The translations under genes were made by a program, and so were the position numbers. Below, one piece after another: positions 2,215 through 62,264 of a stretch of 64,000 bases of DNA (positions are counted from its first letter, which is position 1; every line of letters starts with the position of its first letter). The stretch covers positions 1,791,110 to 1,855,109 of the forward strand of contig NZ_CP123991.1 in the NCBI RefSeq assembly GCF_029919255.1, written 5' to 3'. This DNA comes from a cyanobacterium endosymbiont of Epithemia clementina EcSB. GTDB taxonomy: Bacteria; Cyanobacteriota; Cyanobacteriia; Cyanobacteriales; Microcystaceae. The notes below the pieces were generated by a model. That model was not told the origin of the DNA, did no database searches, and saw nothing but the letters and a program-made list of their open reading frames with translations.

Positions 2215-4251
2215 ATGAACCCAACCAACAACATTCTTATTATTGGCGGTGGCATTATTGGCTTGTCCATCGCTGTTGATCTTAAACTAAAAGGCGCGTC
2301 TGTCACCCTCCTCAACCGCAATTTTTCCCAAACGGCAAGCCAAGCAGCTGCGGGAATGTTGGCCCCCCATGCAGAAGCCATAACTCCAGGCCCTTTTTTA
2401 AATTTATGTATTAAGTCTCGCTGGCTATACCCTGAATGGGTTCGCAAAATTCAAGATCTTACTGGACTCGATCTAGGATACAATCCTTGCGGTATCATGG
2501 CTCCTGTCTATGAGTTACCCTCCGAGGATTTGCACAATACCGCTAGCGCCCAGTGGTTAGACAAAACTGCCATTCGTTTCCATCAACCAGGGTTAGGAAA
2601 TGATGTCGTTGGAGGATGGTGGTATCCTGAAGATGGTCAAGTAGACAACTGCAAAGTGATGGAAGCTCTGGGCAAAGCAGCCCAGCAATTAGGCATTAAC
2701 ATCCGCAATGGAGTGACTGTTCAAACTATTCAACAAAAACAAGGCAAGGTGACTAGTGTTTTAACGACTGAGGGAGAAATTAAAGCGGAAATTTATGTAC
2801 TCGCTAGTGGATCTTGGTCCAGTCAAATTCTTCCCTTGCCTGTACGTCCAGTAAAGGGACAAATGTTGTCTGTCACCATGCCCCGACAACCCAAAGAACC
2901 CTTTTCTTTACAACGGGTGTTATATGGTCCAGCTACCTACCTTGTCCCCCGACGTAATGGTCGTTTAATTATTGGCGCAACCTCTGAAGAAGTAGGTTGG
3001 ACTCCCCAAAATACCCCTCAAGGTATTGAAACTTTACTAACTAGGGCGATCCGACTTTATCCTGAATTAGCTAATTGGCCAATTCAGGAATTTTGGTGGG
3101 GCTACCGCCCGGGAACTCCGGATGAATTGCCCATTTTAGGTAAAAGTTCTTGTGATAATCTCATTTTAGCCACAGGGCATTGTCGTAATGGTATTTTACT
3201 AGCTCCTATAACCGCCTCCTTAATTAGTAATTTGATTATTAACCAGAAGTCTGACCCTATTCTCGATGCTTTTCGAAGCGATCGTTTCTACAGTCGACCT
3301 ACTCCTACTCCTACTCCTACTCCTACTCCTACTCCTACTCCTACTCCGTTAAGTATGACAGCTTTTAATCCAATTTCTCCAACTCCCCTCAATGGAACTA
3401 ACGGCTCATTATCCTATCGCGAACTTTCTTCCCCTACCCACGATGACTTGATGATTGCCGGACGCAACTTTCACTCACGTTTAATGACAGGAACAGGGAA
3501 ATATCCTAACATTGCAAGTATGCAAAACAGTGTGGCTGCTAGTGGTTGCCAAATTGTGACTGTCGCTGTTAGACGGGTACAAACTAAAGCTCCTGGACAT
3601 GAAGGGTTGGCCGAAGCCTTAGACTGGAGCAAAACCTGGATGTTGCCCAATACTGCAGGGTGTAAAACAGCTCAAGAAGCTGTCCGAGTGGCTAGGTTAG
3701 GACGAGAAATGGCGAAATTATTGGGACAAGAAGATAATAACTTTGTCAAGCTAGAAGTCATCCCAGATACTAAATATTTACTACCTGATCCCATCGGGAC
3801 TTTGCAAGCAGCTGAAATCTTAGTCAAAGAAGGGTTTGCAGTACTTCCCTATATTAACGCCGATCCTCTATTAGCAAAACGTCTTGAAGAGATAGGATGT
3901 GCTACGGTAATGCCCTTAGGTTCTCCCATTGGTTCGGGTCAGGGTATTCGCAACGAAGCTAACATCACTATTATTATCCAAGAAGCAAAAGTCCCCGTAG
4001 TAGTCGATGCTGGGATAAGAACCCCCAGTGAAGCAGCAAAAGCGATGGAATTAGGAGCTGATGCAGTGTTAATTAATAGTGCGATTGCCTTGGCTAAAAA
4101 TCCCGTGGAGATGGCAAAGGCAATGGGGATGGCAACTGAGGCTGGACGTTTAGCTTATTTAGGAGGTCGTATTCCTGTTAAAGAATATGCTAGTGCTAGT
4201 TCTCCTTTGACAGGAACCATCGATAGCCAAAAGTTATCACTAACTAGGTGA
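2215..4251 (+). CDS. thiO-thiG: bifunctional glycine oxidase ThiO / thiazole synthase ThiG
   Basis: A 678-residue fusion for the thiazole branch of thiamine synthesis. Residues 1-360 are a ThiO FAD-dependent glycine oxidase: Rossmann motif [12 protein letters not shown] near residues 8-19, and the C-terminal [11 protein letters not shown] signature of the D-amino-acid oxidase family. ThiO makes the dehydroglycine consumed by ThiG. Residues about 395-678 are ThiG, which condenses dehydroglycine, deoxyxylulose phosphate and ThiS thiocarboxylate. The KLEVIPD segment carries the Schiff-base lysine, and PLGSPIGSG and [11 protein letters not shown] form the phosphate-binding end of the barrel. The two halves are joined by a Thr-Pro linker, (TP)8 at residues 363-378, encoded by an ACTCCT microsatellite. 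The fusion is common in cyanobacteria. No thiS or other thi gene is adjacent. A perfect hairpin overlaps the stop codon. Confidence 0.95.
3298..3348 (+). repeat. ACTCCT hexanucleotide microsatellite in the thiO-thiG linker
   Basis: Seven perfect ACTCCT units plus one ACTCCG encode eight Thr-Pro pairs between the two enzyme domains. Because the unit is a multiple of three, copy-number change alters linker length without a frameshift. Confidence 0.9.
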
Positions 4252-15890: not shown

Positions 15891-16924
15891 AATTAAAAAA
15901 ATATTTATATTTCATAATTTTAGAAGAATCTTAATTCCTATGTCAATTATTGAATTTTTCCTAATTTAATAATTAAATTATTCCATTTCAAAATTATTAA
16001 TTTAATAGTTTCTTTGATTGTTAATTTTATATTTAGTTTCCTTGTTTATTAATTAATATTAGTATTCTTACTACCTATAGTATTCCTACTAATATTGTTA
16101 TTTTTCTTCAAGTTTAGTGAGATCAGCTGGTGTAGCTATCGAATTATTAGCTTTCTATTTAAATAGTCTAATTGTTAATTTTTATTTTTTGATGTTGATT
16201 TATATATTTATATAATAATTTTGATTTTTAAAATAGCCATTAAAGTACTAGTAATTTATGATATACTGTTTTTGTTCAATAAATTTTAGCGCCGATTTTA
16301 GTAGGAAAAAAAATTGTTAATTTTTTCGTTTTATTTGTTTACCGATTGTCTATTAACTCTCAACCTTAGTTCTGGTTAGAATTTTAGCTGTTAAAGTCTA
16401 ATTGTTATCTTGATATTTAAGTATCAAAGTATTCAAGGTAGTTCAACCATTAATTTTTATATTAGTACGAACGTTTTTTCTATAAATTGAAAAAGAAATG
16501 TTTGCATTTAGTTTAAATTACTGTAAATAAAACCTTTTAACTCAAATTAACTTAATCTTTCTTTTTTAAAAAAAATTAATCTTCATAAGGCTTGAAATTA
16601 ACGGGCGAGCATGGTTATATTTAACATATAGTACTAAACACTAAATAATAGTAACAGATTCAAAAACTATTTATTTTCAAAATCTCTTAAATTCAGAAAA
16701 ATATCCTCTGTTAAATTTGGTAAAAGCTCTATAAAGTGGTAATAAAAGAATATTTATGTGTACAAAAATATTCTTTTAAAGAACATAGATTGTAAGAAAT
16801 AAAACTACACCAAACTCAAGTAAATAGATAACTTTAATCTATACAAAAGAATTATAACCGATTATATTCAAATATGAGTTATTTTCCACAAATTATCAGT
16901 TACTAATTATCAAATAGAAAAATT

Positions 16925-58349: not shown

Positions 58350-59179
58350 AAAAACCATGGATGTTGAGTATTTTCAATACTAAGAATTACAACATTATCT
58401 TTTAATCTGTAAATACTTATTCACTTGCAAACTTGATTTTAAAATCAACATCATATAAATGGTTGAATTGATTGGGATTCACCAAACTCTAAAAGTTTGC
58501 CTTTTCTTGGTTATAAACTTTTTTTTAAAAAAAGCTTTTGAAAAAAAGTAAGCTATTATTTTTCCTATGAAAATAAAAAAGTCTAAAATAGAAAAGTAGT
58601 TTGAAAAGGCAATAACTAAATGCCAGCTTGCCTAAAAGTTCAGTTAATAGAATTAAAAAATAAAAATTGTTAAAGTTAGCTCGTAACCCAGAAATTTTCT
58701 CCAGAACGAGAGCTGAAGTTTTCTCTTTATAAGAAAGTAGAAAATCAAAGAAATTGCAGATGAGGTTAAATTATATACTATAAAAATAAGGGAATAGATA
58801 CGGTAATCTTTAAAAAGAATTACTTAGTATATACAAGTAGTTTAGTTAAGGTCAGACTAAAAAAATGCTAAAAAAACGGAGATGACATTAAACAAAAGCC
58901 CATGATATTACCGGAAGAAAGCGATTCGACAAAGTCTTTATCAAAGAAGTTGCCATAATTAAGACAATATAAATTTAACTATAACTGCTTAAATATTAGA
59001 GATACAAGATAATTTGCCTACTTTTTTGTCATCCTTATCAAGGATAGCCCATAGGTGATTACACCATAGGTAATTTACTACTATAAAAGTACTACTTGCG
59101 AAAATTGCTACTTGAGATATGGATATTCCATCTAGGGATTTAATTAACATAGACAATAATCTCCTCCAGATAGGCTTAA
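58350..59179. other. 830-bp gap with IS630 fossil
   Basis: Holds the IS630-like fossil at 58565-58960. The remaining stretches contain only A/T runs, including an imperfect A/T palindrome near 58505-58545. Confidence 0.55.
58565..58960 (+). mobile_element. IS630-like transposase fossil, copy 2 (internally deleted)
   Basis: Aligns with 30296-30480 (TCTAAAATAGAAAAGTAG, CTAAATGCCAGCTTGCCTAA, AGTTAGCTCG, CCAGAACGAGAGCTGAAG) and, after a jump, with the 31080-31130 part (TTACTTAGTATATACAAGTA and TTTAGTTAAG), so the middle of the transposase is deleted. The N-terminal text MPACLK..L and NPEIFSRTRAE-like fits the helix-turn-helix of IS630 proteins. Confidence 0.55.
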
Positions 59180-60832
59180 CTATTTAGAGTCGACATCAAC
59201 AGAAACTCCGGCTGATTCAAGTATTTCGATAAATTCAGTTTCTGAAAGTTGAGAAATACCAAACTTTTGAGCTTTTTTTAGTTTCTCACCAGGAGTTTTT
59301 CCCACAACAACGTAGTGAGTTTTGAAACTAGGGGAGCTGCTTAAAGTTCCTCCTGCTTTTTGAATATACGACTTAGCCTCATCTCGATTCATTTGGGATA
59401 AATTTCCTAATACAACTACTTTTTTACCCTCAAACAAATTCTCTTGGTTTAAACTTTTTTGGTTTTCTTGGGTTTCTTTTTTTTCTTGTGTATTTCCTCT
59501 AGTTAATTTCCCTTTAACTTCCTGGGTCTCTTCTAATTGAGTCTCTTCTAATTGGGTTTCTTCTAATTGGGTTTCTTCTAATTGGGTTTCTTCTGATATC
59601 GATTGTGATTGAGATGGAATATTATAAGGTTTAGCAACACTATCTTTAATACTCGATTGTTGCGTTTTTAACCCTTTGATTTTTTCTTCTAAAGAAGACA
59701 CCTGTTCACGTTCTTTAGTTATAGTTTCTTCAAAAGTTTCTTTCTCTTGAGTTAGACTATCTATTCTTTGTTGCAAGGTAGCTTCTAAAGCTTCTTTTTC
59801 TTTAGCTTGCTTTTGTAAAGTAGTGAGTTGTTCACGTTCTTTGGTTATAGTTTCTTCAAAAGTTTCTTTCTCTTGAGTTAGACTATCTATTCTTTGTTGC
59901 AAGGTAGCTTCTAAAGCTTCTTTTTCTTTAGCTTGCTTTTGTAAAGTAGCGAGTTGTTCACGTTCTTTGGTTATAGTTTCTTCAAAAATTTCTTTCTCTT
60001 GAGTTAGACTATCTATCCTTTGTTGCAGGGTAACTTCTAAAACTTCTTTTTCTTTAACTTGCTTTTGCAAAGTAGCGAGTTGTTCACGTTCTTTGATTAT
60101 AGTTTCTTCAAAAATTCTTTTCTCTTGAGTTAAACTATCTATCCTTTGTTGTAAATCAGCTTGTATAGTATCTTTTTCTCGGGCTAATCCCTGAAGTTGC
60201 CTTTCTAAAGAAACTGTTCGTTGATTTCCTTTATCGAGAATCTCTTCAAGTTTTTTCTTTTCTTGAGTAAAACTATCTACTTGTTGTTGTAAAGTAGCAA
60301 TTTTCTCTAATTCTTTTTGTAATGTATTGAATGTATGATTCTTTTCTCGACGCAAACTCTCAAGTTGCTGTTGAAGAGAAGAAACTTGCTCTTGTTGCTC
60401 AATTTGTAACTTGTGTTTTAATCTTTCTGATTCTTTAAGATCCTTTTCCAAAGATATAAGTTTTTCTTTATGTTTATCTAAATCTTTTGTTAAAGCGGTA
60501 ATTTCTTGCTGTTTTTTCTTTAAATTACTAGTTAAATTACTCTTGTCGAATTCTATTTGACTAACAGTCTCTTTCAAATTAGTAAGTTGACAAGAGACTT
60601 CATCAAGTTGATGCTGAATTTGCTCTTGATCATGAGTTAACGTTTTATTGGACATGACAGCACAAGTTAGCTGTTCATGTAGAGTTTCTTTCTCTTGGTT
60701 GATCTCTTTCTGTTTGTCAACGAGTTCTAATTCCCGTTTCATGCTATTACGACGAAGTTGCGAATAGTTCACCCAAGAAGCTCCTAAAACAAGCATCAAT
60801 GCGGCAATCTCATAAACTATTTGATTCGTCAT
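59180..60832 (-). CDS. membrane-anchored coiled-coil protein with C-terminal BRCT domain
   Basis: A 550-residue protein of unusual design. Residues 4-22 (QIVYEIAALMLVLGASWVN) form one N-terminal membrane segment. About 30-415 is continuous coiled coil, including four tandem 42-residue units that start LQQRIDSLTQEK and run to EKEALEAT (six heptads each). Next is a run of EETQL repeats (near 430-450). The last 80 residues are a BRCT domain: LFEGKKVVVLGNLSQMNRDE, then KAGGTLSSSPSFKTHYVVVG and KLKKAQKFGISQLSETEFIE, close to the BRCT of NAD-dependent DNA ligase. This suggests tethering DNA or a partner to the membrane, but function is unknown. AGGAGA before the ATG supports the start. Confidence 0.8.
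   Translation of the reverse strand: MTNQIVYEIAALMLVLGASWVNYSQLRRNSMKRELELVDKQKEINQEKETLHEQLTCAVMSNKTLTHDQEQIQHQLDEVSCQLTNLKETVSQIEFDKSNLTSNLKKKQQEITALTKDLDKHKEKLISLEKDLKESERLKHKLQIEQQEQVSSLQQQLESLRREKNHTFNTLQKELEKIATLQQQVDSFTQEKKKLEEILDKGNQRTVSLERQLQGLAREKDTIQADLQQRIDSLTQEKRIFEETIIKEREQLATLQKQVKEKEVLEVTLQQRIDSLTQEKEIFEETITKEREQLATLQKQAKEKEALEATLQQRIDSLTQEKETFEETITKEREQLTTLQKQAKEKEALEATLQQRIDSLTQEKETFEETITKEREQVSSLEEKIKGLKTQQSSIKDSVAKPYNIPSQSQSISEETQLEETQLEETQLEETQLEETQEVKGKLTRGNTQEKKETQENQKSLNQENLFEGKKVVVLGNLSQMNRDEAKSYIQKAGGTLSSSPSFKTHYVVVGKTPGEKLKKAQKFGISQLSETEFIEILESAGVSVDVDSK
59520..59595 (-). repeat. 15-bp tandem repeat encoding EETQL
   Basis: About five units of TCTTCTAATTGGGTT (plus-strand form) with few changes encode successive Glu-Glu-Thr-Gln-Leu pentapeptides before the BRCT domain. 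Confidence 0.85.
59704..60207 (-). repeat. four 126-bp tandem units in the coiled-coil gene
   Basis: GTTCACGTTCTTT recurs at 59704, 59830, 59956 and 60082, an exact period of 126 bp (42 codons). The two middle units are nearly identical, pointing to recent duplication or conversion. Confidence 0.9.
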
Positions 60833-61121
60833 ATTACTTCTCCTAAATAAAAGCAGCCGCAGGCTAACTGTTGATGTAGAGCGTATTCTTCAGTCAAGTT
60901 GATGTGACCTATCTATATTCTTACTATATATATCAGGCTGTCATACTAGAAACGGGGTAAATAGATTAAATCTTACAAATCTTAATAGAAGAAGAGGGGA
61001 GAGAAGTCGGAGAGGGTGAAAACTGTAAGATATGCAAGAGGGTTATTCTTAACATAATTTAAGAAATTTGAGAGCATCCATTGATAATTTAACTATCTTA
61101 AAATATTTACTAAATTAGTCT

Positions 61122-62264
61122 TTAACAAAGATTAATTTTGCCAGCTTTTACCTTAAGAATTTGGGAAGATTGTAACCACTGAGCATTAAAAGAATGTAAA
61201 TAAGTAGTCGTAATCAGGGTTTGAAATCGCCCTTGAATGACTTCTAATAGTTGGTTTTGTCGATTCGGATCAAGTTCAGCTAATACATCATCGAGTAATA
61301 ATAATGGCGGTTCTCCTATCACCTCTTCAATCAATTGAAGTTCGGACAATTTTAAAGATAAAACAAGAGTCCGTTGTTGTCCTTGGGAACCAGAAGATTT
61401 AGCAGGAGTTTGGTTAATTGTAAATCTCACATCATCTCGATGAGGTCCTACTAAGCTTGTCCCTAATTGTTGTTCTGCAATGCGACGCTGTTCCATTCTA
61501 TCAAGGAATGCTTGTTTCACTTGAATTGAATCATCTGAATCACAGAAAATATTAGGTAAATAGGTTATTTCTAAGGTTTCTTGTCCTCCACTAATATTTT
61601 TATGCCAAGTTTGAGCTAAAGAGGTTAATCTTTCTATTACTCTAGCCCTTCGCCTTGTTACCCGTGAACCCGTCTCTACTAACTGCCGATCCCAAAGGTG
61701 CAATTGAGATATCTCGAACTCTAAATCAGCGGATGTTTCCTGTTTGGCGACTTTTTTTCGTAATTTTTTTAGTAGGGCATTGCGTTGACGTAAAACTTGA
61801 TAGTATTCGTGTAATATGTAAGTATAGACCGGTTCTAGTTGAACTAATAGAGTATCTAGCCAACTTCGACGAGTATCAGGTGAACCTCTAACTAAGTCTA
61901 AGTCTAAGGACGAAAACCCTACCGCGTTAATACTTCCCAAAAATTCCAGATGGCGGCGTAGATTTTCCTGATTCAGAGTTAAAGTTCGTCTTCCTGGAGA
62001 ACGCAGGATAATGCCGAGGTCCGATTTACCGTAGGTCCGTTCAACATTTCCCAAAATTTGCCCCATATTCTTTCCTTCAAAAATTAAATCGCTGTCGCGG
62101 TTTGTTCGATGACTTTTGAGAGTGGCTAATAATTCCACTGCTTCAAGGATATTGGACTTTCCTTGGGCATTATTTCCTAACAAAATAGTTTTTTGTTGAT
62201 CAAATTTAACCGATTGCTCAAAATAATTCCGAAAATTATGTAAATGTAGGGTTTTGAGATACAT
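61122..62264 (-). CDS. recF: DNA replication and repair protein RecF
   Basis: A 380-residue SMC-like ATPase that helps load RecA at gapped DNA. It begins YLKTLHLHNFRNYFEQSVKF; Walker A is GNNAQGKSN at residues 30-38; the ABC-type signature SSGSQGQQRTLVLSLKLSEL and Walker B PPLLLLDDVLAELDPNRQ with D-loop are intact. ILLGNNAQGKSNILEAVELL is the RecF-specific form. It is not beside dnaA-dnaN-gyrB, which is normal for cyanobacteria. The gene is complete with ATG at 62264; the BRCT protein lies downstream on the same strand, 290 bases away. Confidence 0.94.
   Translation of the reverse strand: MYLKTLHLHNFRNYFEQSVKFDQQKTILLGNNAQGKSNILEAVELLATLKSHRTNRDSDLIFEGKNMGQILGNVERTYGKSDLGIILRSPGRRTLTLNQENLRRHLEFLGSINAVGFSSLDLDLVRGSPDTRRSWLDTLLVQLEPVYTYILHEYYQVLRQRNALLKKLRKKVAKQETSADLEFEISQLHLWDRQLVETGSRVTRRRARVIERLTSLAQTWHKNISGGQETLEITYLPNIFCDSDDSIQVKQAFLDRMEQRRIAEQQLGTSLVGPHRDDVRFTINQTPAKSSGSQGQQRTLVLSLKLSELQLIEEVIGEPPLLLLDDVLAELDPNRQNQLLEVIQGRFQTLITTTYLHSFNAQWLQSSQILKVKAGKINLC

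Follow-up and report, generated by a model that had tools for sequence, protein, structure and literature searches.

Scaffold proteins of the ZipA/EzrA type combine one N-terminal helix with an elongated cytoplasmic part and partner binding, a layout like the one predicted for the protein described here. RFC1, which is not known to have a membrane helix, contacts the 5' phosphate through Thr and Lys. A Thr/Ser before the Gly of the first strand and a Lys that starts the second helix are, as we take it from the literature on BRCA1 and RFC1, the residues of the phosphate pocket. According to the accessible part of PMC10504179, the BRCT pocket has been linked in prokaryotes to phosphates at nicks or ends; LigA of D. 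radiodurans lacking its BRCT shows a lower affinity for dsDNA. Taken singly, BRCT domains and coiled coils anchored in a membrane are known kinds of module; their combination was not found in the open-access library searched (titles and starts of abstracts, among the matches listed). The main text of PMC12903740, PMC5638926 and PMC11131595, as far as accessible, contains no occurrence of the term BRCT.

A gene encoding this combination is located in the window, i.e., the whole stretch of 64,000 nucleotides that was analyzed, which is part of an endosymbiont genome assembled as a single contig of 3,072,807 bp. A first-pass annotation had proposed that its product could hold DNA or a repair complex at the membrane. 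The features of the locus are listed in Table 1.

Table 1. Features of the BRCT gene and its surroundings (positions in the window)
Feature	Position	Strand	Basis or remark
Coding sequence, 550 aa: membrane helix, coiled-coil rod, linker and BRCT	59180..60832	minus	ORF call and Pfam
Shine-Dalgarno-like TAGGAG	60840..60845	minus	ends 7 nt before ATG
Single predicted membrane helix, residues 5-23	60764..60820	minus	mean hydropathy 1.51
Coiled-coil rod, about residues 28-395	59648..60751	minus	heptad periodicity; limits are a matter of judgement
42-residue (126 bp) tandem repeats in the rod, 3.8 copies, 93% match	59703..60179	minus	tandem-repeat listing
LEETQ pentapeptide array in the linker, 15-bp unit, 4.8 copies	59523..59594	minus	tandem-repeat listing
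BRCT domain, residues 463-537	59222..59446	minus	Pfam PF00533, E 2.8e-15
Leu475 codon, at the place of the conserved Thr/Ser of LigA BRCTs	59408..59410	minus	alignment of family and LigA BRCTs
Family-specific K-x-P-G-x-K-x-K-K-x-x-K stretch, residues 512-523	59264..59299	minus	alignment of family and LigA BRCTs
recF, upstream neighbour (context)	61122..62264	minus	same strand as BRCT gene

Protein layout and rod repeats

The 550-residue frame starts with ATG. For comparison, 33 loci of the same cyanobacterial family were used, and counts for the architecture and the BRCT refer to the 27 with one full open frame. The six loci left out were a broken gene (G002), one with a masked stretch (G001), one at a contig end (G004), one divided into two frames (G028), one at a contig start (G026) and a BRCT fragment of 51 residues, likewise at a contig end, which scored 47.9 bits with the family profile (G009). 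A Shine-Dalgarno-like motif (GGAG, AGGA or GAGG at -18 to -4) precedes the start in all 27 intact homologues, the starts of 12 of them having been shifted by eye to the ATG after such a site.

The one N-terminal membrane helix of the first-pass annotation was recovered as the sole segment above threshold, i.e., no other 19-residue window of the protein exceeded a hydropathy of 1.3. K/R residues are absent before this helix, and six are present in the 20 residues after it; by the positive-inside rule, an N-out/C-in topology is predicted. The pattern is shared by the family: 26 of the 27 homologues have no K/R before the helix (one in G003), and all have 2-7 within the 20 residues after it. Tyr is found at residue 7 or 8 in 27/27. 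The maximum hydropathy of the helix ranges from 1.14 to 2.11, with G008 and G030 below 1.3 (values of 1.14 and 1.28).

The window protein is rich in EKQLR and has only two prolines between residue 40 and the BRCT. Its coiled coil, which had been put at nearly 400 residues, is a real heptad rod (z = 8.4 vs. shuffles), but by reading its length is nearer 360 than 400 residues. Heptad periodicity was above that of shuffles in all 27 intact homologues (lowest z of 3.0). The rise per residue of a helical rod is 0.1485 nm; the window rod of about 362 residues, if helical, would thus measure about 54 nm. Across the 27 homologues, 240-623 residues separate residue 40 from the start of the BRCT alignment, corresponding to 36-93 nm (median 70) if wholly helical, which is an upper bound with the linker included.

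Repeats of 42 residues in the rod had been described as exact. The tandem array is real, but the repetition is near-exact only: at lag 42, identity runs for 40 residues at most, the most similar pair of copies shows mismatches at 4/126 bases and 2/42 residues, and the last copy has diverged. Close relatives of the window genome (G000) are two spheroid bodies, those of Rhopalodia gibberula (G005) and Epithemia turgida (G002), as well as uoEpiScrs1 (G003), which is probably an endosymbiont too. Counted by eye, the 42-residue unit is present in two copies in G003, two in G002, four in the window and six in G005, where differences among the first five copies do not exceed 3/126 bases; for G003, Tandem Repeats Finder lists no 42-residue array. 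With such lineage-specific tandem copies in four close genomes, the earlier conclusion that the repeats imply length change is supported. The EETQL repeat was likewise found again, as the LEETQ array of the linker. Among the three intact close relatives, this array is expanded in the window genome only; LEETQ occurs once in G005 and is absent from G003, which has LEETE there.

In several further genera, the rod contains tandem units of other kinds, e.g., of 39, 45, 46 and 49 residues with a DNA match of 93-98%, and no tandem array is listed for six of the 27 intact homologues. In all proteins but that of G011 (26 of the 27), self-identity at the best lag was higher than in any of 20 shuffles, some margins being small; the shuffles break the heptad order, and weak excesses carry little weight. 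A strict rule that the repeats preserve the heptad was rejected, as periods of 42, 49 and 35 residues are divisible by seven and those of 46, 39, 45, 52, 53, 31 and 24 are not. The homologue at a contig start (G026, L070:2-553) contains an exact 21-residue repeat, LRETTTNLTEKDLELISLQER, and the assembly breaks inside this repeat.

Distribution, genomic context and decay

The order of helix, rod and BRCT was found in 27/27 intact homologues, all from the same cyanobacterial family, so that the search for homologues of the same architecture, which the first-pass annotation had suggested, gave a uniform picture. Because all 27 share this architecture, a chance fusion is ruled out; none lacks the membrane segment or the BRCT, and two of the helices are weak. 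In a search of 59 relatives, long homologues were present in most same-family genomes. Outside the family, the BRCT matches were confined to short alignments and fell in frames of 393-1042 residues, most of which were close to LigA in length; the ORFs of four such loci (L077-L080) have 696-870 residues.

Among the best candidates scored, the family BRCT profile reached at least 120.7 bits in 43 of 50 family genomes, the broken G002 included, and other matches to this profile in the 50 genomes reached at most 104.9 bits. No family-type BRCT was found among the best candidates of G004, G009, G013, G019, G021, G060 and G063; G004 has the N-terminal part of a homologue at a contig end, and G060 and G063 are incomplete drafts, which were searched for the BRCT part alone. 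In the order sample, 17/17 listed family members had a family-type BRCT (lowest score of 128.4 bits, for the broken G002), and it was found in 0/225 other genomes of the order among the best candidates scored, with a best score of 111.1 bits in a 718-residue frame. In the class sample, 7/291 passed E 1e-33 (best candidates scored), all of them of the same family. These genome searches scored the best first-look candidates, in some cases the best 18-24 per genome, and "none" refers to these. A membrane-anchored protein with a very different BRCT in another family may have been missed.

With the Pfam BRCT model, two BRCT loci were detected in 12/12 family members of the phylum sample. Outside the family (n = 182), 172 genomes had one locus, five had none and five had two, i.e., a second BRCT is rare in the sampled cyanobacterial genomes outside the family. 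The window genome has two loci, namely the 550-residue gene and a 678-residue frame, which was taken as its LigA. Thus, the first-pass statement that the architecture is unusual for bacteria stands for cyanobacteria at large, but within one family the architecture is ordinary. Two drafts deviate. G064 has two family-type BRCT loci (C97:446-694 and C256:28847-29098), possibly due to duplication or an assembly effect. In G028 (L058:4170-6078), the membrane part and the BRCT part are located in separate ORFs, which may represent a frame break or a draft error.

Neighbouring genes were compared all-against-all across the 33 family loci. recF adjoins the BRCT gene in seven of them, all of the window's genus, and there is therefore no steady context tie to DNA repair. 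No neighbour is common to more than three genera. The widest-shared one is a CBS-domain protein, which is encoded beside the BRCT gene in 4/33 loci of three genera (L063, L066, L071 and L073; two of them Pfam-scanned). An upstream block comprising a helix-hairpin-helix protein, two genes upstream of the BRCT gene, and a TM2/SHOCT protein was present in 3/33 loci of two genera other than the window's (one locus scanned). Adenosine deaminase, AhpC/TSA, peptidase S13, DUF1517 and 3-hydroxyisobutyrate-dehydrogenase-like neighbours were shared by two genera at most. An operon or a common pathway was rejected, as no neighbour occurs in four genera and none suggests a shared pathway.

In the window, the downstream neighbour is a convergent Methyltransf_28 gene. 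Between it and the BRCT gene, about 830 bases (58350-59179) are free of ORFs of at least 80 aa, and a simple scan of this interval yielded no minus-strand terminator-like site. On the upstream side, a terminator-like hairpin of the minus strand (60854-60866) is located in the gap towards recF, a short way upstream of the Shine-Dalgarno-like site, and may separate the transcripts of recF and the BRCT gene; three terminator-like sites were found in the region vs. 1.4 expected. Elsewhere in the window, a perfect array of the hexamer CCTACT (3298-3347, 8.3 copies) lies inside a 678-aa ORF (2215-4251), and a group of imperfect tandem repeats, rich in AT and with a unit size of about 17-28 bp (15934-16098), is found where there is no ORF of at least 120 aa.

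Pairwise dN/dS values (Nei-Gojobori) of the whole gene were 0.29 for the window genome vs. G005 and 0.28 vs. G003. Against G003, values of 0.16 were obtained for both the BRCT and the membrane segment; the BRCT value of 0.36 against G005 derives from few changes. The linker showed 0.47-0.83, and recF 0.12-0.18. Since the whole-gene dN/dS is about 0.28, the BRCT gene is constrained, less so than recF. The first-pass remark that the frame stays open in a decaying genome is right for the window, but the G002 orthologue (L046:4934-6255) has a stop at the start of the BRCT, with flanking pieces that are still recognizable; among the four close genomes, the other three have an open frame. The break in G002 looks recent because the flanking pieces keep dN/dS values of 0.17-0.49. 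The broken copy shows gene decay under way in one of these four genomes. The two smallest family genomes (G013 and G021; 1.4-1.5 Mb) gave no family-type BRCT match among the best candidates scored. With a broken copy in G002 and no family-type BRCT match among the best candidates of six further family genomes, the two smallest included, some lineages can do without the gene. According to the accessible part of PMC11131595, hardly any photosynthesis genes are left in spheroid bodies, yet three of the four relatives keep a constrained frame. A purely photosynthetic role of the gene is therefore unlikely.

The BRCT head

The C-terminal BRCT proposed in the first-pass annotation was confirmed by Pfam with 56.7 bits vs. 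a cut-off of 21.3. Six of the 26 other intact homologues were scanned, and all of them exceeded the cut-off (38.8-61.0 bits). By profile, the nearest solved relatives are LigA BRCTs (2owo, 1l7b, 1dgs and 9vse; best E of 2.6e-20), followed by RFC1. An AlphaFold model of the domain from 11 sequences reached a pLDDT of 83 (best of five; the others 58-72), and one from three endosymbiont sequences was discarded (pLDDT of 45). In the retained model, the window head adopts the BRCT beta-alpha-beta fold. The best Foldseek match listed was the RFC1 BRCT (2ebu, 2k7f; E of 1.7e-07, 37% identity), and the next one was an integrative model with LigA; since the fold searches list many other BRCTs, closeness to RFC1 and LigA holds among the matches listed. 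When the BRCT model was superposed on a LigA model with VIA-align, a Z of 13.0 and an rmsd of 1.7 over 79 residues were obtained.

For comparison with LigA, 35 of 36 rows were used, the dropped row being the 51-residue fragment of G009. These rows were assigned to LigA by similarity and frame length (570-783 residues) and come from the same family of genomes. In a tree, the 27 family BRCTs formed one clade with a support of 100/99, apart from the 35 LigA rows; the alignment has few columns and the branching inside LigA is poorly resolved, so that the exact LigA parent is not fixed. The label "ligase-type" given to the domain is justified by its relationship to LigA in the profile search, but not by its pocket, from which the Thr/Ser is gone in 27/27.

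At position 475, before the invariant Gly476, Thr/Ser is found in 35/35 LigA rows vs. 0/27 family BRCTs, which have Leu (17), Val (5) or Ala (5); rows within one genus are near-copies, and counts of 27 and 35 do not represent independent events here or below. K/R at position 517 is common to both groups (27/27 and 35/35). Thus, of the two residues of a LigA-type phosphate pocket, the family BRCTs lack the Thr/Ser and have the Lys. K/R residues at 512, 519 and 523 are present in 26, 27 and 27 of 27 family BRCTs vs. 2, 3 and 10 of 35 LigA rows, and all five positions of the lysine patch are occupied in 26 of the 27. Pro514 is found in 27/27 vs. 8/35. The mean net charge is +5.3 for the family BRCTs (2 to 9) vs. 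+2.0 for the LigA BRCTs (-3 to 9), with overlapping ranges.

Since the pocket Thr/Ser is absent, the usual DNA-end mode was probably lost in the family BRCTs, and a conserved basic face has been gained. Judging from the alignment, the lysine patch makes non-specific binding of DNA or of an acidic partner plausible. The loss of Thr475 could equally mean that the head binds protein alone.

Proposed role and comparison with known systems

The reading preferred here, which is given about an even chance, is that of a membrane-anchored cytoplasmic tether or scaffold whose BRCT head would grip nucleoid DNA or an acidic or DNA-associated protein near the membrane. The short N-terminus would face outward, with rod and head in the cytoplasm as expected from the positive-inside rule, and the rod would pair into a coiled coil, probably a dimer. 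In the window protein, such a dimer would place its two heads at a distance of about 54 nm from the membrane, and across the family the heads would reach at most about 36-93 nm if the whole span is helical. The heads may grip their partner via the lysine-rich face and not via the phosphate pocket; the most likely partner would be the backbone of nucleoid DNA or else a protein that is acidic or associated with DNA, held near a plasma or thylakoid membrane. A single origin of the gene, with a LigA-type BRCT, is probable at the root of one cyanobacterial family or close to it; some reduced-genome lineages would later have lost the gene or carry it in broken form. A more far-reaching version is doubtful: a ligase-type BRCT would have given up the recognition of phosphates and DNA ends and turned into the lysine-rich head of a tether from membrane to nucleoid, the reach of which is tuned by rapid tandem duplication in the rod.

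The main rival, though itself rather unlikely, is a scaffold that binds protein only: the BRCT head would bind a specific non-phosphorylated protein of the division, pilus or envelope machinery in a ZipA- or EzrA-like manner and without contact to DNA. This would fit the loss of Thr475 as well as the finding that no link to DNA genes is widely conserved at the 33 loci, and cyanobacterial coiled-coil proteins at the periphery act in motility, according to the accessible part of PMC7002697. However, the lysine patch is nearly invariant, which suits a polyanion, and no candidate partner gene travels with the BRCT gene beyond three genera. The first-pass proposal, in which a membrane-held BRCT binds ends or nicks as LigA does and brings repair to the membrane, is improbable and did not survive as written, since Thr/Ser at 475 is missing in 27/27 and the recF adjacency is confined to one genus; moreover, no repair domain is attached to the window protein among the Pfam and NCBIfam matches. 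These points outweigh those on its side, i.e., that by sequence and fold no BRCTs among the matches listed are closer than those of LigA and RFC1, that LigA of D. radiodurans binds dsDNA less well without its BRCT (accessible part of PMC10504179), that Lys517 is kept in 27/27, that recF adjoins the gene in 7/33 loci and that a helix-hairpin-helix protein is encoded two genes upstream in 3/33.

The least likely explanation, and a very improbable one, is a drifting, near-neutral repeat protein, the rod of which grows and shrinks by replication slippage and the gene of which is on its way out in endosymbionts. Its dN/dS of about 0.28 overall and of 0.16 for the BRCT and the membrane segment (G000 vs. 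G003) argues against drift, as do the values of 0.17-0.49 for the pieces of the broken G002 copy, the frame that is open in three of four close relatives and the conservation of the ends in free-living genera while the middle varies. The differences in repeat units and copy numbers between relatives, the broken copy itself and the lack of a family-type BRCT match in G013 and G021 would be expected under drift.

A family-wide membrane-anchored BRCT that is altered at a LigA-invariant position offers a natural test of BRCT function beyond the recognition of DNA ends, and length change driven by repeats makes the rod length a ready-made experimental variable. If the more far-reaching version is true, the family would provide a bacterial parallel to the diversification of eukaryotic BRCTs and a new kind of linker between chromosome and membrane. 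Such a link, if true, would bear on DNA organization in unicellular cyanobacteria and in young nitrogen-fixing endosymbionts.

Several identities with known systems were rejected. The window protein is not the NAD-dependent DNA ligase LigA, as NCBIfam LigA models match by their C-terminal part only, and no ligase domain (adenylation, OB, zinc or HhH) is among its Pfam matches. An SMC/Rad50 identity was rejected because the NCBIfam matches are to inner parts of the models, lie mainly over the rod and are far below the cut-off; no ATPase head domain was matched by Pfam at E up to 1. A defence system was likewise rejected, since PADLOC matches were weak (best E of 1.5e-04) and mostly over the coil. 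No ZipA or EzrA model is among the Pfam and NCBIfam matches at E up to 1.

HmpF, Slr7083 and Fm7001 are likened to the window protein by their description in the accessible part of PMC7002697, as cyanobacterial and coiled-coil-rich proteins, some of them at the cell periphery; the term BRCT has 0 occurrences in its main text as far as accessible. In contrast to scaffolds of the ZipA/EzrA type, the window protein has a BRCT as its head. Unlike the family BRCT, the RFC1 BRCT is part of the eukaryotic clamp loader. The LigA BRCT and the family BRCT are alike in length and in most core residues. The family protein differs from LigA in that it is without the ligase domains and carries a membrane helix and a rod in front of the BRCT, and the family BRCT differs from that of LigA by the loss of Thr/Ser at 475 and the gain of the lysine patch and of Pro514.
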